From Mariprofundaceae bacterium (lineage in GTDB: Bacteria; Pseudomonadota; Zetaproteobacteria; Mariprofundales; Mariprofundaceae), in NCBI GenBank assembly GCA_027018935.1, contig JALUXZ010000214.1, positions 1 through 38,803 on the forward strand: a stretch of 38,803 bases of DNA, in the 5' to 3' direction. This document shows positions 2,650-29,588 of this stretch, piece by piece (the first letter of the stretch is position 1; the number at the start of each line of letters is the position of its first letter). The notes below the pieces were generated by a model, which was given only the letters and a program-made list of their open reading frames with translations, made no database searches and was not told where the DNA came from. Position numbers and translations under genes: made by a program.

Positions 2650-3941
2650 TATACAACAATACGCTCTAGTCCACCGACATAAGGTCGTAATTTTTCTGGA
2701 ATAACAACAGAATCATTGCCATGTTCATCAAGCTGCCAACCGTTTTCAAGAATTGCCACCAAGGTACGTCCAATCGCCAAGCCTGAACCATTCAAGGTTG
2801 CTACTGCTTCTGGTTTACCTCCTTCAGAGCGAAAACGAATGCCAGCACGCCGCCCTTGAAACTGGGCGAATGATGAGCATGATGAAATTTCACGGTAGCA
2901 AGATTGACTTGGTAACCAAACTTCCAAATCAAAGGTTTTCTGCGCTGAAAAACCAATATCTCCCGCACATAAATCAACCACACGGTAAGGTAGTTCCAAG
3001 GCTTCCAAAATAGCCGCAGCATGCCCGGTTAATTCATTCAAACCATCCAACGCATGCTCTGGATGCACCAATTGCACTAACTCAACTTTATCAAACTGAT
3101 GTTGGCGAATCATGCCACGGGTATCGCGCCCTGCAGAGCCTGCTTCACGGCGAAAACATGGTGTATAAGCACAATGGCGAATCGGTAAATCAGCCGCATC
3201 TAAAATAGTATCTTGGTATAAATTCGTAACAGGCACTTCAGCGGTAGGAATTAAAAATGCATCCTCACCTTCAAGGTGATACAAATCATCTTCAAATTTG
3301 GGTAACTGACCTGTTCCAGTTAAAGTCTTACGATTGGCAATCGCTGGCACCCAAACTTCTTCATAGGCATGTTGGTCAGCATGCATATCAAGCATAAACT
3401 GCATCAAACCACGCTCTAAACGTGCGGCTGCACCACGTAGTACCGAAAAACGGCTACCTGCCAACTTTGCACCTGCTTCAAAATCAAGAATACCCAATGC
3501 CTCACCAATATCCCAATGGGCTGGTACTTTATCTTGGCGCGGCTCACCCCAACGTCGAATTTCAATATTGTCATTTTCATCCGCACCATCAGGCACAGAT
3601 GCATGTGGCAAATTCGGAATTTCTAACAAAGCATCAGAGAATGCGGCTTCAGCTTCTTTGGCTTGTACATCCAACAGTTTGGATTGCTTGGCAACCTCAC
3701 CCATGCGTGCCAATTCTTTGGAAGCATCATCACCATTCTTTTTCTTTTGACCAATCAGTTTGGATACACTGTTGCGCTCGGCCTGCAAAGCTTCTGACTG
3801 CGCTTTTACATCACGCTGTGCTGTATCCAAAGCACGTGCACGTGCCCATGCAGAACCCTCTGCTACTAGAGCTTCGCCACGACGTGCCAAAGCCTCTTGC
3901 ATCACTTCAAAATCTTTACGAAAGGCCTTCCGATCAATCAT
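2649..3941 (-). CDS. serS: Seryl-tRNA synthetase
   Basis: A 430-residue class II aminoacyl-tRNA synthetase that charges tRNA-Ser, and also tRNA-Sec where present. The N-terminal 100 residues form the long antiparallel coiled coil that grips the tRNA variable arm. The catalytic core has class II motif 2 ([20 protein letters not shown], about residues 260-280) and motif 3 near the C-terminus ([18 protein letters not shown]). Length is normal for the family. The start ATG lies inside the end of gyrA: the two frames share 8 nt (ATGATTGA), and AAGGTGATG upstream serves as ribosome site, so translation is probably coupled to gyrA. The TAG stop abuts miniature element A, which now forms the 3' flank of the gene. 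Confidence 0.97.
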
Positions 3942-6465
3942 TCACATCACCTTCATTACTGTTTGTTTCATTATTATTCGTTTCATTACCCGAGTCTTCA
4001 GTTCCATTGACATCAAATAACTCAGCTTCTTCTTCATCCTGCTTTTCAACCACACGCACTGCGCCAATCACACGTTCTTTTTTATCACACTTAATCAAAG
4101 TAACGCCCTGCGTATTACGACCAATGACAGAAATACCATTCATCTTCATCCGCATCAAACGTCCCGTATCGGTCATCATCATCACTTGATCATCATCAAG
4201 CACCTGAATCGTTGCCACCATCGAACCGTTGCGGTCGCCTGTTTTCAATGTGAAGACACCCTGCCCACCGCGTTTTTGACAATTGTATTCTGATACCAAG
4301 GTGCGTTTGCCATAACCATTCTCAGAAACCACCAATAGCGAGGCTTTTTCTGCCACCAAGGTCATAGAAATAACTTCATTATCTTTCGGCATACGCATAC
4401 CTGTCACACCGCGTGTACTGCGTCCCATGGTGCGAACATCCGTTTCATGGAAACGAATCAACTTACCGCCACTGGATGCCAGCATAATGTCTTGCTCACC
4501 ACTGGATTTCACCACACCAATCAAACCATCATCATCATCGAGTTTGATAGCGATAATGCCGTTGGTACGAATATTCTGATATTCAGAGAGCTTGGTTTTC
4601 TTAATCACACCATTTTTGGTTGCCATCACAATGCAATGTTCATCATCAAACTCACGAACCGCCAATGTAGCTGAAATCTTCTCATCTTTTTCAACAGGCA
4701 AAAGGTTAATCAATGCTTTACCACGTGTTGCACGCCCTGCTTGCGGAATTTCATAGACTTTTTTGCGGAATACACGCCCTTTATCTGAGAAGAACAACAA
4801 ATAGTCATGTGTTGATGCGACCATCAACTGCGTCACAAAGTCTTCTTCTTTGGTGGTCATGGCTGTTTTGCCTTTGCCACCGCGACGTTGTGCACGGTAT
4901 AAGGTTGTCGCGTTACGCTTGATATAGCCCTCATTAGAAATGGTTACAATCATATCTTCTTCGGTAATCAAATCTTCCACCGAAAGCTCTGCTGTTTCAT
5001 CCATGATTTCAGCACGGCGCGGGTCAGCATATTTATCACGCACTTCTTCAAGTTCTTCACGAATCACTTTCATCAACAATTTTTCATCTGCTAAAATAGC
5101 TTTTAAGTGTGCAATCAAAGCCTGGACTTCTTCAAATTCTGCTTTGATTTTGTCATACTCAAGACCAGTCAAACGTTGCAAACGCATATCGAGAATTGCT
5201 TGTGCTTGTTTATCCGAAAGTGCAAAAGTGTCCATCAAACCCTGTTTGGCTTCCGCACCTGTTTGGCTTGCACGAATAAGTTTAATCACTGCATCAATAT
5301 GATCCAAGGCAATGAGTAAGCCCTCTAAAATATGGGCGCGTGCTTCTGCTTTATTCAAATCAAACAAACAACGACGTGTAACAACCTGGCGGCGGTGATC
5401 AATAAAGTGCAATAAGAGTTCACGCACACCACAAAGTTTTGGCTGCCCATCCACCAACGACAGCATATTACAGCTAAAGTTGCATTGCAGCTGAGTATGT
5501 TTGTAAAGGTTATTTAAAATAACTTCAGGAATTTCATTGCGTTTTAACTCAATATAAATACGCATGCCATCACGATCTGATTCATCACGCAGGTCAGAAA
5601 TGCCTTCCAATTTCTTATCTCGCACCAAATGCGCGATATTTTCAATCAATTTTGCTTTATTTACCTGATATGGCAATTCAGAAATAATCAGCGATGCTCG
5701 TTTGGTACGCTTATTGATCTCAACACTGGCTTTGGCACGCATGGTGACCGAACCACGACCAGAAATAAAAGCATCACGCATGCCTTTGCGACCATAAATA
5801 AATGCACCCGTTGGAAAATCAGGACCAGGCATGATTTGCATCAATTCATCATCATCGGCATCAGGATTATCAATCAAAGCAATCGTCGCATTGATACTTT
5901 CACCCAAATTATGAGGAGGAATATTGGTTGCCATGCCCACGGCAATACCTTGTGAACCATTCACCAACAAACAGGGAAATTTAGCAGGCAATACTTTTGG
6001 CTCAGACAACGAATCATCGTAGTTCGGGCCAAAATCAACGGTGTCTTTATCAATATCAGCCAATAATTCAGCCGATAATTTACTCATGCGCGATTCGGTA
6101 TAACGCATTGCTGCAGGAGAATCACCATCCACAGAGCCGAAGTTACCCTGCCCATCGACAAGCACATGACGCATGCTCCAGTGCTGTGCCATACGAACCA
6201 AGGCATCATATACGGCTGTATCACCGTGCGGATGATATTTACCAATCACATCACCAACCACACGGGCTGATTTTTTGTAAGGTTTATCATGGGTACAACC
6301 CAAATCTTGCATGGCGTATAAAATACGACGATGAACGGGTTTTAAACCATCTCTAGCATCAGGCAATGCACGCCCAATAATAACACTCATGGCATAATCC
6401 AGATAGGAGCGTTTCATCTCATCTTCAATCAGAACTGGTGCTGCTGGGTTCAGTATTTCGTCCAT
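3934..6465 (-). CDS. gyrA: DNA gyrase subunit A
   Basis: An 843-residue GyrA, the breakage-reunion subunit that with GyrB negatively supercoils DNA. The catalytic tyrosine is Tyr122 (in AMRYTES). The quinolone-resistance region carries Thr83 and Asp87 in E. coli numbering; Thr83 is a normal wild-type state in several Gram-negatives. The GyrA box (QRRGGKGK) precedes the C-terminal beta-pinwheel. The tail after the pinwheel is acidic, then Asn/Glu/Thr-rich, with an [11 protein letters not shown] near-repeat. The start has GGAGAT close upstream. tRNA-Arg lies 34 bp upstream on the same strand, and serS overlaps the 3' end. Confidence 0.98.
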
Positions 6466-6499
6466 TTTATCTCCGTGTGTACATACTCAATAAAAATCA

Positions 6500-6576
6500 T
6501 GGTGCCCTCGACAGGAGTCGAACCTGTGGCCTACCCCTTAGGAGGGGGTCGCTCTATCCAACTGAGCTACGAGGGC
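6500..6576 (-). tRNA. tRNA-Arg (anticodon CCU)
   Basis: Read on the minus strand the sequence folds into a full cloverleaf. The acceptor stem is GCCCTCG/CGAGGGC, the D stem GCTC/GAGC, the anticodon stem ACCCC/GGGGT with loop CTCCTAA, and the T stem ACAGG/CCTGT with loop TTCGACT. The anticodon CCT reads AGG arginine codons. The 3' CCA is encoded (6500-6502). It sits between the apt terminator and gyrA. Confidence 0.96.
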
Positions 6577-6710
6577 ATAAATAATATCATCAGGGCATAA
6601 GAAAGCACGCCTAAATGATGCAGCATGATAACCACAATAAAGGCATCCTGCACGCACTGACTTAACATTACTGAACATATATAAATCAATAAATTAATAA
6701 AGAAAAAAAA

Positions 6711-6734
6711 GAAAAAAACACTTACAAAAGTGTC
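6711..6734 (-). terminator. Rho-independent terminator of the rpoS-apt unit
   Basis: On the minus strand a 6-bp stem ACACTT/AAGTGT with a 4-nt loop is followed by a run of seven T residues. It lies about 50 bp beyond the apt stop codon. A second, weaker A/T hairpin (about 6756-6778) lies between it and apt. Confidence 0.8.
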
Positions 6735-6785
6735 TTTATAAATTCACCTTCATTCATAAAAAAAGTGAGCTTTTTTTTGTGAATA

Positions 6786-7313
6786 TCAATAGGAAAGTAA
6801 GTGATGTACTGGGGTATCGCCCAATAATTGACGACCATTCAAAAAGGACAACTCAATCACAAACAAACAGGCTACTACATCAGCACCAAGTTGGTTAACC
6901 AGATTTAATGTAGCCTTGGCGGTGCCACCTGTCGCCAACAAATCATCAATAATGACAACTTTTTGCCCATGAGCCAAAGCATCACGGTGAATCTCTAGGC
7001 GATCCATACCGTACTCAAGTTCATATTCAATCGCATGCACATCGGCTGGCAGCTTCCCTGGTTTGCGCACTGGCACAAAGCCCAAACCCGTCAACTGAGC
7101 TAAAGCTGCGCCAAATAGAAAACCTCGCGATTCAACGCCAACAATGAGACTCGCATCACTCGGCACGTGGCATGCCAATGCTGAAACACAAGCACCAAAA
7201 GCATCACCATCTGCCAATAACGGCGTAATATCTTTAAACGTAATACCTGGTTTGGGGTAATCTGGAATATCGCGAATAAAATCGCGGAAATTTATAGCAT
7301 TGGATGAGTTCAA
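6786..7313 (-). CDS. apt: Adenine phosphoribosyltransferase
   Basis: A 175-residue cytosolic purine-salvage enzyme converting adenine and PRPP to AMP and pyrophosphate. The N-terminal DYPKPGITFKDITPLLAD segment is typical of Apt, and the PRPP-binding loop VVIIDDLLATGGT is at residues 119-131. Length is normal. The start appears to be TTG at 7313: it has a strong ribosome site (GAGGAG) at proper distance and overlaps the rpoS TGA (TTTGA), and no in-frame ATG exists before the conserved region. It is the last gene of the pcm-yqaA-nlpD-rpoS-apt unit and is followed by a terminator. Confidence 0.95.
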   Translation of the reverse strand: MNSSNAINFRDFIRDIPDYPKPGITFKDITPLLADGDAFGACVSALACHVPSDASLIVGVESRGFLFGAALAQLTGLGFVPVRKPGKLPADVHAIEYELEYGMDRLEIHRDALAHGQKVVIIDDLLATGGTAKATLNLVNQLGADVVACLFVIELSFLNGRQLLGDTPVHHLLSY

Positions 7314-10405: not shown

Positions 10406-10482
10406 TGGTCGGGACGAGAGGATTTGAACCTCCGACCACTACACCCCCAGTGTAGTGCGCTACCAGGCTGCGCTACGTCCCG
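10406..10482 (-). tRNA. tRNA-Pro (anticodon GGG)
   Basis: The minus strand folds into a cloverleaf. The acceptor stem is CGGGACG/CGTCCCG, the D stem GCGC/GCGC, the anticodon stem CTACA/TGTAG with loop CTGGGGG, and the T stem GGAGG/CCTCT with loop TTCAAAT. The anticodon GGG reads CCC/CCU proline codons. The 3' CCA is encoded (10406-10408). Confidence 0.95.
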
Positions 10483-22544: not shown

Positions 22545-23108
22545 TTAGAAATGATATTGTGCGTTAAGTGAAAGAGAGCTTGCTTCTAAACCCTGAAAGT
22601 TGGTTTTAATCGCTATTGCATTTGTTTTTGGTTTACTAAGCATATGAGAATATTCTAGACCAATGCTATAATCATCCATAACACGATATTGCGCACCCAA
22701 GCCATAAGAATAACCAGTACGGGTTTTCGTTTGTTTGACTAAACCAGGCTCACTATAACTCGAACGTACCGTGGCTACACCTAACAATGCATAAGCCATC
22801 CAACGCTCATCAAACTCATACCTAGGTTTTAGGTATGCTGCAGCAAAGTAATCAATACCCATGCGTGGCTGTAAGGTAAGCTCCTCACCTGTTGTGCCCG
22901 TTTTACCAATACGAATTTCACCACCAAAATTCTCGGAAAAGTCATCTCCTAATTGTAAGTAAGCTCCTGTAGTCGCTTTTTTTGTCACACCGCTACCAAG
23001 GTTGAATGCACCCAAACCCAGTCCTACATAAGGCTCAGAGGCCTGAGCTACACCACCAAAAGTAAGCATTAAAGATGCTGCGACAGCAATTTTTATCGTC
23101 TTTTTCAC
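22545..23108 (-). CDS. Outer-membrane beta-barrel protein
   Basis: A 187-residue exported protein with a signal peptide (residues 1-23, ending AQA-S). The mature part shows alternating hydrophobic/polar strands with many Gly, Tyr and aromatic residues, ending in the outer-membrane C-terminal signature LNAQYHF. It begins EPYVGLGLGAFNLG, a typical first strand of the eight-stranded OmpA/OmpW-like porin family. The length of about 164 mature residues suits an eight-stranded barrel. The start is GTG at 23108 with AAAGGAG upstream. The function is unknown; it could be a structural or adhesion barrel. It is monocistronic. Confidence 0.8.
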   Translation of the reverse strand: MKKTIKIAVAASLMLTFGGVAQASEPYVGLGLGAFNLGSGVTKKATTGAYLQLGDDFSENFGGEIRIGKTGTTGEELTLQPRMGIDYFAAAYLKPRYEFDERWMAYALLGVATVRSSYSEPGLVKQTKTRTGYSYGLGAQYRVMDDYSIGLEYSHMLSKPKTNAIAIKTNFQGLEASSLSLNAQYHF

Positions 23109-23354
23109 GTAAGTTCTCCTTTGATTTAATGAAAGGGCGCAACGTAAGAAGCCAACCTGAACTGAAACTGAATATTCATTACATCAAACCATTAGAATAA
23201 AAAAGGTCTTTAATCCCTGCCTCCAAAACAGTAATAAACGCATAGCACTAATTTTCCATTGGGAATATCTCACAAACTTACCATCGACAAAGTTCCAACC
23301 TGTGATACGCTCTAATAAAGCATCATTCAAAAATCTAAAAGGATACGAGCACCC

Positions 23355-25630: not shown

Positions 25631-25660
25631 TTCAGATTCATTTCAGGTTCATCATATAAA
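25631..25660 (+). promoter_or_regulatory. Tandem direct repeat and -10 of the cytochrome operon
   Basis: Two adjacent 11-bp direct repeats, TTCAGATTCAT (25631-25641) and TTCAGGTTCAT (25642-25652), lie just before a -10-like TATAAA (25655-25660). Eleven-base tandem repeats overlapping -35 are the usual layout for OmpR/PhoB-type regulators, and such a regulator is encoded in the same operon. The predicted transcript start would lie only a few bases before the ATG. Confidence 0.6.
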
Positions 25661-25669
25661 GTTCGCTGC

Positions 25670-26254
25670 ATGGACACAAAAAATGCAAAAGAAGTTGAAG
25701 TTTGGAGCTTATCCCTTCGCTTATTTCACTGGCTTTTAGTAGCCGCATTTTTCACATCATGGTGGACAAGTGATCATCATATTCGCCTGCATATCCTTGC
25801 AGGTGCAGCCATTGCTGGTCTTCTCTTATACCGCCTTATTTGGGGTGTTTTAGGTGAAAACCATGCAAAGTTTTCATCTTTTACCCCATCATTTGCAAAT
25901 ATCAAACAGCATGTATTGGATTTGATCCGTCGCCAACCTAGACATTATATCGGTCATACGCCGATAGGCAGCTTGATGATTTATGCTCTGCTGGCGAGCC
26001 TTCTCATCCTCGTTACATCTGGTTTTTCACTGATTGCTTTGCAAATGAATTTTGGTCCATTCTATGGATTACAAGCAAATTATAACACCGAAATCTTTAT
26101 TCAATTCATACACGCTTGGTGTTTTGAAACACTGCAATTTCTTGTGTTTATTCATCTGGCTGGTGTTGTTGTAGAAAGCAGCTTGCAACACTCAAACCTT
26201 ATAAAATCTATGTTTACAGGCAAAAAAACAATCAAGGAGAATATAAATACATGA
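25670..26254 (+). CDS. Cytochrome b561-type di-haem membrane protein
   Basis: A 194-residue cytochrome b561 family protein, an inner-membrane electron carrier. It has four hydrophobic helices (about residues 17-35, 40-60, 100-125 and 145-170). Candidate haem-ligand histidines are His20, His41, His148 and His162. The opening EVEVWSLSLRLFHWLL is the family signature. It lacks a Shine-Dalgarno sequence at its ATG and is the first gene of a six-gene operon. It overlaps the SHP gene by 4 nt (ATGA). With SHP and DHC it likely forms a quinol-to-periplasm electron path. Confidence 0.88.
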   Translation: MDTKNAKEVEVWSLSLRLFHWLLVAAFFTSWWTSDHHIRLHILAGAAIAGLLLYRLIWGVLGENHAKFSSFTPSFANIKQHVLDLIRRQPRHYIGHTPIGSLMIYALLASLLILVTSGFSLIALQMNFGPFYGLQANYNTEIFIQFIHAWCFETLQFLVFIHLAGVVVESSLQHSNLIKSMFTGKKTIKENINT

Positions 26255-26670
26255 AATCACTTATCATACTTATCGGCTTTATCATATTCATTAGCTTGGC
26301 AGTCAGCCAAACTGCTTTTGCTGCAAATAACACTGTCACAATGCTACTGGAAAAATACCAGAGCGAAGGCGCTCATCAATTTGATGCCAACAAAGGAAAA
26401 TCCATGTGGCAAGAGCAGCATATACAAAAGAAAACAGGAAAATCAGTAAGTTGTTCAACATGTCATACCAGCGATTTGCGTAAAACAGGCAGCCATATTC
26501 GCACAGGTAAACTTATTGAAGCGATGTCTGCAAATATCAACCCCGAGCGTTTCCAAGATGCCAAAAAGATAGAAAAGTGGTTCAAACGAAACTGTAAATG
26601 GACTTGGGGGCGTGAATGCAGTGCGCAAGAGAAAGGTGATTTTCTAACTTTTTTCAATCTCAATAAGTGA
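26251..26670 (+). CDS. SHP-type cytochrome c (DUF1924, sphaeroides haem protein)
   Basis: A 139-residue exported monohaem cytochrome. Residues 1-24 form a signal peptide (ends AFA-A). The haem-binding motif is CSTCH (Cys68, Cys71, His72). The family pattern RTGK, NPERF, KVEKWFKRNC and GRECSAQEKGDF is complete. In the studied SHP the sixth ligand is an Asn directly before a disulfide Cys, and Asn114-Cys115 here fits, with Cys123 nearby. SHP binds oxygen and nitric oxide after reduction. Ribosome site AAGGAG precedes the overlapping start. It partners DHC and the b561 gene on either side. Confidence 0.88.
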   Translation: MKSLIILIGFIIFISLAVSQTAFAANNTVTMLLEKYQSEGAHQFDANKGKSMWQEQHIQKKTGKSVSCSTCHTSDLRKTGSHIRTGKLIEAMSANINPERFQDAKKIEKWFKRNCKWTWGRECSAQEKGDFLTFFNLNK

Positions 26671-26708
26671 TAAGAAATACAAAATTATTTAAAAATAAGG
26701 AGAATATT

Positions 26709-27290
26709 ATGAAACAAAAACGATTTTGGGGTACAATTTTGCTCTTTGGCTGTATTTCGCTATCCATGGCAACACTGGCATGGAGTGATGGCTGGGAATG
26801 GGGAGAAAGTGATGAGCATGAAGAAAGAGGTTTTATGCAACAAACTGCGGGCGTTCCTCCTGTGATCAATAAAGCATATAAAAATGAGTGCTCTGCGTGC
26901 CATTTTGCTTATCCTGCGGGCTTTTTACCAAAGCGTTCATGGGTCAAGATCATGACTACATTAGATGATCATTTCGGAGAAAATGCAGAGCTTGATGATG
27001 AAACAATGAATGACATTACAACTTATTTAAGCACGCATGCTGCCGATCAAACGCCCAATCGTTTTAGCCGCAGTATTACACGTTCTATTGCCGATAAATC
27101 TGTGCCATTACGAATCACAGAAACCAACTACTTTCTTCATAAACACAGAGAAATTCCAAAACGTATGGTGCAGGGAAACATCAAAGTACGCTCATTCTCC
27201 AACTGTCTTTCATGCCATACAGGTGCATCAGAAGGCTCTTTTGGTGAAGACAGTGTACACATACCTGGGTACGGACGTTGGGAGGATTAA
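26709..27290 (+). CDS. Di-haem cytochrome c (DHC family)
   Basis: A 193-residue periplasmic cytochrome c with two c-type haem motifs, CSACH (Cys61, Cys64, His65) and CLSCH (Cys166, Cys169, His170). It has a signal peptide (about residues 1-26). The flanking words CHFAYPAGFLPKRSW and LDDHFGENAELDDETM are hallmarks of the DHC family, known as the electron donor to SHP. The frame is open to 26667, but the ATG at 26709 has AAGGAG just upstream and gives a proper signal peptide. The 3' end overlaps the PepSY gene by about 13 nt. Confidence 0.9.
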   Translation: MKQKRFWGTILLFGCISLSMATLAWSDGWEWGESDEHEERGFMQQTAGVPPVINKAYKNECSACHFAYPAGFLPKRSWVKIMTTLDDHFGENAELDDETMNDITTYLSTHAADQTPNRFSRSITRSIADKSVPLRITETNYFLHKHREIPKRMVQGNIKVRSFSNCLSCHTGASEGSFGEDSVHIPGYGRWED

Positions 27291-27592
27291 GCCCCCGTTT
27301 TTTAGCTGTTGCTACGGTATTTATCGCCGTAGCAATGGCTATGTCTCAAGCCATCGCCGATGATGATCTTGAGCTGGCACGCCAACTGCGCAACACAGAG
27401 AGTATTTTGCCACTATCGCAAATTCTCAAAGAAATCGAAGCCTCCTATCCCGGTACCTTATTGGATGTGAACTTAGAGTATGAAGATTTAAAACTTATTT
27501 ACGAAATTGAGATATTGGATAGCAAACATGTTGTGCAAGAAATAAAGGTTGATGCGACTACGGGTAAAATTTTAACGGTGGAGACTGATTAA
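27278..27592 (+). CDS. Small PepSY-domain periplasmic/membrane-anchored protein
   Basis: A 104-residue protein with an N-terminal hydrophobic stretch (about residues 7-28, ending SQAIA), acting as signal peptide or anchor. A single PepSY domain follows (LSQILKEIEASYPGTLLDVNLEYEDLKLIYEIEILD, then VDATTGKIL). PepSY domains in this context are often encoded beside two-component systems and haem or redox proteins, and may modulate the sensor. The best start is TTG at 27278, since no ATG or GTG lies before the hydrophobic region. It overlaps DHC and its TAA overlaps the regulator start (TAATG). Confidence 0.82.
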   Translation: MGGLSPRFLAVATVFIAVAMAMSQAIADDDLELARQLRNTESILPLSQILKEIEASYPGTLLDVNLEYEDLKLIYEIEILDSKHVVQEIKVDATTGKILTVETD

Positions 27593-28284
27593 TGCGCTTA
27601 CTTCTTATTGAAGATGATACCACCTTAAACCAAGAGCTTAGCCAGCAACTGCGCAAACATGGCTTCGCAGTCGATAGCGAGAAAAGTGGTGTCAATGGTG
27701 CATTTATGGGGGAAACTGAGCCTTATGATGTAATTATTCTTGATCTTGGTTTACCTGATTTACCTGGTTTGGATGTTCTATCCCAATGGCGTAACAAACA
27801 TATTGCCACCCCCGTGCTTATTTTGACAGCGCGTGGCGCATGGCATGAAAAGGTCGAAGGATTTAAAGCTGGTGCTGATGATTACCTAACCAAGCCTTTC
27901 CACATTGAAGAGTTGATCGTGCGTTTACAAGCCTTGATTCGACGATCTGCAGGCATCAACAATACAAACATAACGATTGGCGAATTATCACTCGATGAAC
28001 CCACCCAATCCGCCCATTGGCAGCCTACAGCGGGGGAAAAGCAAGACATACAGCTTACTGGCATTGAATTTCGCTTATTACGCTATTTTATGCTACACCC
28101 TAGAAAAATACTTTCCGCGTCACATTTATTAGAACACGTCTATGATTTTGATGATGAAAAAGAAAGCAATGTGATTCAGGTTTATATAAATAGGTTAAGA
28201 AATAGAATTGGTAAAGAAGCCATTTGCACACGTCGAGGACAAGGTTATTACCTTAACCCTGACGCCTTACAAAGCAGTAAATAA
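27592..28284 (+). CDS. OmpR-family response regulator
   Basis: A 230-residue two-component regulator of the OmpR/PhoB class, QseB/PmrA-like. The receiver domain is residues 1-115 with the acidic pocket Glu7-Asp8-Asp9, phospho-acceptor Asp51 (VIILDLGLPD) and the conserved Lys in LTKPF near 101. The winged-helix DNA-binding domain ends ESNVIQVYINRLRNRIG, RRGQGYYL. It starts on the PepSY stop and is followed after 2 nt by its kinase. The tandem 11-bp repeat upstream of the cytochrome b561 gene is a plausible target. Confidence 0.93.
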   Translation: MRLLLIEDDTTLNQELSQQLRKHGFAVDSEKSGVNGAFMGETEPYDVIILDLGLPDLPGLDVLSQWRNKHIATPVLILTARGAWHEKVEGFKAGADDYLTKPFHIEELIVRLQALIRRSAGINNTNITIGELSLDEPTQSAHWQPTAGEKQDIQLTGIEFRLLRYFMLHPRKILSASHLLEHVYDFDDEKESNVIQVYINRLRNRIGKEAICTRRGQGYYLNPDALQSSK

Positions 28285-28286
28285 CA

Positions 28287-29588
28287 TTGTATTCACTCAA
28301 TAAACGCCTCACCCTTAGTCTTGCTGGAAGCTTGGTGTTCTTTTTTATCTTTCAAACGCTCATGATTGATCGAGAAGTAGAAAAACTCAGTGAACAAAGC
28401 CTCATATCACGGCTAGAACATGATCAACGATCCTTGCTTGCAGCTCTTAAGTGGCAACCACCTGCCGCACCAGAGCTTAAACAAAGTTATATCCCTGATA
28501 TTTATACACGTGCTTTTTCTGGTCATTATTATGAGCTTAGCGTTGATGGTCATAGCTTTCGTTCAAGATCTCTATGGGATGAAAAACTTACCCCAACAAA
28601 TGCACCACTAACTCGCAATGTATTAGGCCCACACAATCAACTATTACTTATCCTTTCACAAGATTTCATCGTGCATAACAAGCCCGTAACTATCCGCATA
28701 GCCGAAGATGTTTCACACTTTGAAGCTATGACCAGTGCCTTTCAAGGCAACTTGTTAATACTTGCCGCAATGGCTGTATTAACCCTGCTTATTTTACAAA
28801 GTTTGATTATTCACTATGGCTTAAAACCACTGCTGCGAATCCGCCAGCAGCTAGGCCAACTAGAACGCGGTGAAATTCATCAAATAACCATACCCGCCCC
28901 CAAAGAAATTATGCCTTTGGTAACAGAAATCAATCATCTGATAACACTCATAAATAAGCGTTTAGAACGATCCAGACATGCCTTGGGAGATTTGGCGCAT
29001 GCATTAAAAACCCCACTATCAGTCATCCAGCAAATTGTTGAACGACAAAAAAACACAGCTGATAACAGCCAGCTTCAAAATCAACTACAACAGATAGAAC
29101 AACGTATTACCCGTCAACTTGCTCGGGCTCGAACTGCAGGGCAATCACCTGGTGGGCAATGGTTAAAGCCATATAACGACCTTCATGAGCTGCTGAATGT
29201 ATTTAAAAAATTATTTCCCAACAAAACAATCACACTGGCAATATCTGACACGCTAAAAATTGAAGCTGATCGTGAGGATATGATGGAAATATTCGGAAAT
29301 TTATTGGAGAATGCTTGTAAATGGGCAAGTTCAACAGTGCATTGTCAAATAGAAAAATCTCACAACAAACTATTAATTACAATCGAAGACGATGGCGCAG
29401 GTATTAGCCCTGATAAACATCAACACTTATTAGGCAGAGGCATACGTGCCGATGAATCCAAACCAGGGCATGGTCTGGGTTTAGCTATTGTTAGCGAAAT
29501 CGTAAATACTTACAAAGGCGAAATAAAACTTACCCAGTCAGCAAACCTGCAAGGTTTGCAAGTGCATATTACTTTACCGCAATCTTAG
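28287..29588 (+). CDS. Sensor histidine kinase (PhoQ/QseC-like)
   Basis: A 433-residue membrane histidine kinase. Transmembrane segments are about residues 8-27 and 154-176, enclosing a periplasmic sensor of about 125 residues. A HAMP-like segment follows, then the dimerisation helix with phospho-acceptor His238 (GDLAHALKTPLSVIQQ). The ATPase domain has the N box (NLLENACKWAS), G1 (EDDGAGIS) and G2 (GHGLGLAIV). The start is TTG at 28287, chosen because MYSLNKRLTLSLAGSL matches the expected cytoplasmic lead to the first membrane helix; no good ribosome site is seen. It is the last gene of the haem operon, and its stop lies at the edge of a long inverted repeat. Confidence 0.9.
   Translation: MYSLNKRLTLSLAGSLVFFFIFQTLMIDREVEKLSEQSLISRLEHDQRSLLAALKWQPPAAPELKQSYIPDIYTRAFSGHYYELSVDGHSFRSRSLWDEKLTPTNAPLTRNVLGPHNQLLLILSQDFIVHNKPVTIRIAEDVSHFEAMTSAFQGNLLILAAMAVLTLLILQSLIIHYGLKPLLRIRQQLGQLERGEIHQITIPAPKEIMPLVTEINHLITLINKRLERSRHALGDLAHALKTPLSVIQQIVERQKNTADNSQLQNQLQQIEQRITRQLARARTAGQSPGGQWLKPYNDLHELLNVFKKLFPNKTITLAISDTLKIEADREDMMEIFGNLLENACKWASSTVHCQIEKSHNKLLITIEDDGAGISPDKHQHLLGRGIRADESKPGHGLGLAIVSEIVNTYKGEIKLTQSANLQGLQVHITLPQS

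Follow-up and report, generated by a model that had tools for sequence, protein, structure and literature searches.

An SK1-type sensor operon for the sphaeroides heme protein, with a predicted operator shared with outer-membrane barrel genes, in a Mariprofundaceae-like genome

The sphaeroides heme protein (SHP; DUF1924) has a role that is not settled, and no other c-type haem protein is known to bind oxygen, as Meyer, Kyndt and Cusanovich (PMC2909971) describe it; they also cite reports of oxygen binding and of nitric oxide (NO) dioxygenase activity for the R. sphaeroides protein. The same authors reported in 2010 a single operon of six genes, CytB/SHP/DHC/Orf1/RR/SK1 (DHC, dihaem cytochrome c; RR, response regulator; SK1, a sensor kinase), in Magnetococcus, Reinekea, Mariprofundus and Shewanella oneidensis. 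They add that SK1 shows a strong correlation with Orf1, that variations of SGVYWQ and RSRSLWD identify it, and that Vibrio has SK1. Here we analyse an operon of this kind at positions 25670-29588 of contig JALUXZ010000214.1, the whole of which (38,803 nucleotides, nt) is called the window, together with a predicted operator that it shares with a nearby gene for an outer-membrane beta-barrel.

The regulatory genes of this operon resemble two described systems, DbfQRS of Vibrio cholerae and BqsRS (CarRS) of Pseudomonas aeruginosa. The frequency of PepSY genes close to two-component genes exceeds expectation more than 60-fold, and the PepSY protein DbfQ binds the sensor domain of the kinase DbfS (Kd 30 nM), favouring phosphatase activity; DbfR output rises on membrane damage but not with Fe(II) or Fe(III), and BqsS is called the DbfS orthologue (PMC12714742). 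BqsS binds Fe2+, with Glu48 as a ligand (PMC12666569). In Allochromatium vinosum on pyrite versus sulfide, the DUF1924 (SHP) gene was the second most induced (log2 7.10), accompanied by DHC (5.54), cytb561 (5.13), the regulator (4.15), the kinase (2.18) and a 'membrane protein-like' gene (5.32) that by its position is probably Orf1. Neighbouring locus tags include induced metal-efflux genes (FieF 3.51, RND/Czc 3.0-4.6); the paper does not use the term sphaeroides heme protein (PMC11267869).

The features of the window that matter for the comparison are the following.

25631..25646, + strand: exact direct repeat TTCAG-N6-TTCAG, predicted operator of the operon's response regulator (two 11-mers, 25631-25652)
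25657..25662, + strand: -10-like TANNNT, 10 nt after the repeat (alignment columns 26, 27 and 31: 0.78, 1.68 and 1.68 bits)
25670..26254, + strand: cytB, cytochrome b561-type membrane protein, 194 amino acids (aa; PF01292, 8e-20)
26251..26670, + strand: SHP/DUF1924 monohaem cytochrome c, 139 aa (PF09086, 1.6e-38; solved relative 1dw0, 2.1e-17)
26709..27290, + strand: DHC, dihaem cytochrome c, 193 aa from ATG 26709 (PF09626, 9.2e-38; solved DHC chain 3u99, 1.6e-37)
27278..27592, + strand: PepSY protein, 104 aa, signal-peptide-like start (PF03413, 8.5e-11)
27592..28284, + strand: OmpR/PhoB-type response regulator, 230 aa (PF00072, PF00486)
28287..29588, + strand: sensor histidine kinase of SK1 type, 433 aa (PF02518, HATPase_c, 5.1e-19; SK1 motifs of PMC2909971)
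22545..23108, - strand: gene for an outer-membrane beta-barrel of 187 aa, starting with GTG; the regulator's predicted second target (PF13505, 2.5e-19)
23157..23172, - strand: another exact TTCAG-N6-TTCAG, 48 nt ahead of the barrel start codon

We read this locus as an SK1-regulated SHP operon in which a PepSY-gated sensor of the DbfQRS/BqsRS kind governs a regulator that activates both the SHP branch and barrel genes through TTCAG-N6-TTCAG, and we put the probability of this reading at about 0.68. By homology and the literature, electrons would run from quinol to cytochrome b561, the cytB product and likely quinol-oxidising entry point, then to the dihaem cytochrome, the likely electron donor to SHP, and finally to SHP, which would carry out periplasmic oxygen or NO chemistry. 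The PepSY protein would bind the periplasmic domain of the kinase and keep it in the 'off' (phosphatase) state; the sequence-only reading had proposed to test for an interaction of PepSY with this domain, a mechanism with a published precedent in DbfQ-DbfS (PMC12714742) and assigned to the window pair by analogy. An envelope or metal perturbation might then release the kinase, and the phosphorylated regulator would bind the repeat, a putative operator marked out by its conservation, just upstream of the -10 element, activating its own operon, including the SHP branch, as well as outer-membrane beta-barrel genes such as 22545-23108.

Upstream of cytB, positions 25631-25652 read TTCAGATTCAT TTCAGGTTCAT. 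A pattern drawn from this site, with up to three mismatches allowed, has a single match in the window, and 100 shuffles gave no match. We counted TTCAG-N6-TTCAG ahead of the first gene in 23 SK1-bearing SHP operons, of which a few are close relatives, and used 59 permuted pentamers as controls. The repeat is exact before 18 of the 23 operons (control average 0.07, maximum 2) and present with at most one mismatch before 21 (average 0.76, maximum 9 for AGCTT, a pentamer that overlaps the repeat). At two mismatches it is found before 22 (average 4.22), a level that says little since an overlapping permutation also reaches 22. A motif-free count of exactly repeated pentamers at spacings 2-19 likewise placed TTCAG with spacing 6 first (18/23), the next being TTTCA with spacing 6 (6/23). 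Alignment of 18 operon promoters gave TTCAGNTTNATTTCAGNTT, followed ten nucleotides on by TANNNT, and the transcript of cytB is predicted to start near the ATG, leaderless or nearly so. In its letters the element has the form of a BqsR-type operator, a direct pentamer repeat of 11-bp period close upstream of the -10 element, with a different pentamer.

Where SHP is present at an SK1 locus but laid out differently (nine loci), the repeat is exact in two (control average 0.07, maximum 2). The 60 SK1 loci without SHP have 4 exact repeats, 13 at one mismatch and 40 at two (control averages 0.22, 1.34 and 8.9; maxima 6, 15 and 25), and here GTCAG with spacing 6 leads (11/60). Among SHP loci without an adjacent SK1 gene, two (L043 and L056) have the exact box ahead of cytB, each in a genome with SK1 at another place; those of this group that lack the exact box comprise three whose genomes have SK1 elsewhere (L038, L050 and L051) and eight whose genomes gave no SK1 match.

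The sequence-only reading had called the operon self-contained, a description that does not entirely hold, given the barrel gene at 22545-23108, which lies outside it on the opposite strand, 2.5 kb away, behind the same predicted operator. Two or more exact sites were found in only 2 of 300 first-order Markov windows of the same composition. In four relatives the repeat stands directly after the kinase gene and ahead of a barrel gene (188-191 aa in three, disrupted in L035), and the barrel gene of the window is the orthologue of this kinase-adjacent barrel; a fifth relative, L185, has the repeat after the kinase with no barrel open reading frame (ORF) behind it. The barrel copy of L035 (~3160-3522) contains an internal stop, retains the box in front and sits beside a complete SHP operon. 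We fetched 30 barrel loci and sought the box within 180 nt upstream. In all 16 closest orthologues (at least 44% identity, the window included) it occurs with at most one mismatch, 11 times exactly (control averages 0.53, maximum 8, and 0.10, maximum 3, respectively), and SK1 is found in 15 of the 16 genomes.

A strict form of the motif, TTCAGNTTNNTTTCAG, occurs in 20 of 23 SK1-positive and 2 of 31 SK1-negative genomes of the family list (Fisher p ~1e-9), the reversed pattern giving three matches over all 54. In 18 of the 20 motif-bearing SK1-positive genomes it precedes the SHP operon or a barrel, and the sites of the two SK1-negative genomes precede neither. The strict motif also stands before six further barrels of low identity (G019, G064, G128, G145, G148 and G025), so that a second barrel family seems to be targeted too, and in G103 before a MipA-family gene. 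The genome of the window holds nine exact repeats (two for the reversed-pattern control), two of them in the window. Three of the other seven lie inside longer reading frames (contigs C124, C161 and C213), and for three more no ORF is listed downstream (C39, C155 and C244); we treat these as chance. The last (L195, G000:C209:6550) runs into the start of a 246-aa ORF that contains CXXCH, overlapping its first codons, and may be chance or a further target.

With regard to the genes of the operon, the claim of six tightly linked genes holds: all six ORFs are on the + strand and each has a Pfam match above the cut-off, the additional HisKA match of the kinase (20.5 bits) falling below it. Neighbours overlap or nearly touch (38 nt between SHP and DHC; DHC and PepSY overlap), and the arrangement is not due to chance, because other genomes have the six genes in the same order. 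For DHC the most likely start is ATG 26709, preceded by AAGGAG, rather than GTG 26667; the TTG start of PepSY (27278) is uncertain, and the kinase also starts with TTG (28287). As in the SHP operons of Meyer et al. (2010), the genes for SHP, a membrane cytochrome b and a dihaem cytochrome c are adjacent. The SHP has a single CXXCH and a distal KWFKRNC...C motif, that is, the Asn sixth ligand and following cysteines characteristic of SHP (KWFKRNCKWTWGREC); this Asn form is seen in 43 of 45 SHPs of the loci sampled, one having Asp and one lacking the motif by regular expression. The DHC has two CXXCH motifs. One Zetaproteobacteria-family locus (L047) has an extra cytochrome b561-like gene at 6349-7098, between SHP and DHC.

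The PepSY protein appears DbfQ-like and would be periplasmic, as judged by its signal-peptide-like start alone. AlphaFold models built from alignments of five rows are of low confidence (pLDDT 69 for PepSY, 63 for the kinase); the PepSY model has a PepSY-like alpha-beta topology, with weak matches to YpmB and CD1622 (E ~0.01, none at or below 0.001).

The window is contig C214 of a 2.57-Mb draft genome (97% complete, 7.8% contamination) that contains one SHP and one SK1-type sensor. The closest named relatives of its kinase come from draft genomes labelled Mariprofundaceae (two), Proteobacteria and Zetaproteobacteria (82, 73, 84 and 57% identity), and the host is a Mariprofundaceae-like (Zetaproteobacteria) genome. 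Scanning genome contigs with the kinase yielded no more than 7 loci, of which 3 are remote, and the survey rests on a search across genomes instead. The SK1-type sensor domain was found in 177 of 397 genomes of the phylum (E <= 1e-6) and SHP in 64, with SK1 within ~5 kb of SHP in at least 28 of these 64 (listings compared by eye). We then scanned 106 loci, the window plus 105 chosen stretches (early SHP loci, SK1-positive members of the window's family and about one to two SK1 loci per genus among the matches listed), with profiles built from the first loci. The SHP loci that lack the PepSY, regulator and SK1 genes (L038, L044, L045, L048-L052, L054-L056) include members of the window's own genus (G004, G005, G010).

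The linkage of PepSY to the kinase is conserved beyond this organism, as the sequence-only reading required. Among 93 SK1 kinases, 91 are accompanied by a regulator and 79 by a PepSY gene within ~2.6 kb; without the 13 seed loci, PepSY is near 66 of 80. Of the 14 exceptions, five (L127, L138, L187, L188 and L189) have PepSY slightly further away and two (L115 and L190) are cut by a contig end. Where the stretch fetched around SK1 contains no SHP, PepSY is present at 52 of 61 loci (in some of the genomes SHP lies elsewhere), and it was found at none of the 13 SHP loci without SK1. It therefore belongs to the sensor module and not to the haem system. A comparison of distance matrices gave partial correlations of 0.27 between PepSY and the sensor and 0.25 between PepSY and the catalytic part of the kinase; as these are about equal, no specific coupling is claimed.

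The sensor of the window kinase spans approximately residues 30-150 and carries SGHYYE and RSRSLWD, variants of the SK1 motifs, with the PepSY gene two genes upstream; as in DbfQRS, a small PepSY gene thus lies beside a regulator-kinase pair. By sequence, the kinase resembles DbfS and BqsS and is placed in the same family. A sensor model derived from the kinases of SHP loci also recovers loci of bqs-like layout, in which two PepSY genes accompany a regulator and a kinase, and loci with a PepSY protein of 132-149 aa and a regulator with Asp51, as in DbfQRS; these are probably Pseudomonas- and Vibrio-like, respectively. At BqsS positions 44-49 the bqs-like loci L121 (REETEG) and L134 (RNDSEN) match BqsS partially and L135 (KDETQT) less so. 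The window kinase has EHDQRS here: it does not retain the RExxEN stretch of BqsS, whose periplasmic-helix residues Glu45 and Glu48 are replaced by His45 and Arg48. Many SHP-linked kinases, including that of the window, have His-Asp at BqsS-numbered positions 45-46, where bqs-like kinases have other residues; this pair may possibly form a different sensing site. Mapped onto a quick tree of the 93 kinases, SHP linkage requires 10 label changes (26.7 on average in shuffles), at least six of them being forced by starred branches. SHP linkage is thus clustered, but was gained or lost repeatedly.

Several explanations compete with the one we prefer. In the sequence-only reading, the redox state of SHP and DHC might set the activity of the kinase by way of PepSY; the operon would then be a haem-based O2/NO sensor in which PepSY senses or transmits the redox or ligand state of these two proteins. 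These proteins are indeed co-encoded and by prediction periplasmic or membrane-bound, and the SHP retains the Asn ligand and cysteines of the oxygen-binding type; the distribution of PepSY speaks against such a role, as do the PepSY and kinase sequences of the window, which contain no CXXCH, and we regard it as quite improbable. A BqsS-like ferrous-iron sensor that turns on the SHP branch at high Fe2+ would fit an iron-oxidiser lineage. It agrees with Fe2+ binding by BqsS, with the pyrite induction in A. vinosum and with the bqs-like loci, whose genomes measure 3.7-6.7 Mb and two of which have Arg44 and Glu48 (BqsS numbering). DbfRS, of the same family, responds to neither Fe(II) nor Fe(III), and because the window kinase has Arg in place of Glu48 and does not keep RExxEN, we rate this explanation as doubtful. 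The operon might also belong specifically to an electron chain that starts at iron or iron sulfide, and not be a branch induced by stress, as the Mariprofundaceae-like host and the link drawn by the A. vinosum authors between the SHP/DHC genes and pyrite electron transfer (PMC11267869) would allow. Yet SHP was not found in 35 of 61 genomes, including 17 of 37 of the window's family (several incomplete), and the 64 SHP genomes of the phylum, like the hosts in PMC2909971, belong to many lineages; the chance we give to such a chain is just as low as for the haem sensor.

The repeat could finally be the operator of another regulator that acts on the SHP operon and the barrels, the linked regulator having other targets. 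A box-bearing barrel orthologue in G036, a 67% complete genome in which no SK1 was detected, favours this and counts against regulation by the linked pair. Since the strict motif tracks SK1 over 54 genomes and the repeat has the spacing of the BqsR operator (PMC4682146), we consider it improbable. Further observations weigh against the preferred reading, SK1-linked control of the SHP branch and barrels. Outside SHP operons the repeat is weak, the 4 exact cases among 60 SK1 loci comparing with 6 for one permuted pentamer. The box is absent from all 14 barrels under 44% identity, each the best listed match of its genome, and three of these genomes (G002, G011 and G148) are SK1-positive; not every barrel is therefore a target. 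The strict-motif sites of G015 and G132 precede neither operon nor barrel, and the motif was not found in the SK1-positive genomes G011, G023 and G026. The count of 20/23 involves some circularity, since part of these operons and barrels supplied the motif, and the genomes behind it are related to one another. As the BqsS ligand Glu48 is Arg48 here, the BqsS signal cannot simply carry over. Finally, the A. vinosum data compare growth modes, three of the genes were suppressed on elemental sulfur, and the authors read the cytochromes as serving electron transfer with pyrite (PMC11267869).

One may go a step further and regard SHP as an effector arm of an envelope or metal stress response, in which one operator and a PepSY-gated sensor join a quinol-fed, O2/NO-reactive haem branch of the periplasm to remodelling of barrels, the module having been joined to or separated from SHP repeatedly; this extension is tentative, and we would not quite stake even odds on it. 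The predicted operator, together with the second group of targets, makes the role of SHP accessible to concrete tests, namely of the signal to which the promoter responds and of a joint need for SHP and the barrel. Connecting the names SK1 and Orf1 with DbfQRS and BqsRS makes the mechanism of PepSY as a direct kinase modulator applicable to SHP operons. In the open-access literature, outside which most subscription journals fall, we found no link between SHP or DUF1924 and PepSY; nor did the open-access literature searched yield an operator with outer-membrane targets for SHP operons.

Elsewhere in the window, genes for tRNA-Arg(cct) and tRNA-Pro(ggg) lie at 6500-6576 and 10406-10482, both on the - strand. 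A consensus promoter scan was set aside, as its 13 promoter-like matches were at shuffle level (mean 11.9); the same scan gave 7 terminator-like matches versus 3.6 in shuffles.

Compared with the SHP operon of Meyer et al. (2010), the window has the same six genes and sensor motifs, its PepSY gene being Orf1 by position, not by sequence. The sequence-only reading had held the module to be under-described, which is true only in part: operon and sensor type were described in 2010, although the word PepSY does not appear in PMC2909971 and the role is not settled there. The passages cited likewise give no operator and no outer-membrane target, both of which we propose for the window operon; the six-gene arrangement is thus known, and the operator shared with outer-membrane barrel genes is apparently new. 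In the case of BqsRS (PMC12666569, PMC4682146), related loci were found by the same sensor model. The BqsR operator TTAAG-N6-TTAAG has the same 6-nt spacing as the TTCAG repeat of the window, and in one dissected promoter a pentamer overlaps the -35 region (PMC4682146); BqsRS differs in having two PepSY genes instead of one and the Fe2+ ligand Glu48, which is not conserved in the window kinase. DbfQRS (PMC12714742) shares the order PepSY-regulator-kinase with the window operon, and L139, a locus found with the model derived from SHP kinases, is similar to DbfQRS in the length of its PepSY protein and the position of the domain, and has Asp51 in the regulator. The main text of PMC12714742 does not contain the word cytochrome, and the DbfQRS regulon as given there comprises biofilm, metabolism and stress genes, whereas for the system of the window we propose the SHP branch and outer-membrane barrels.

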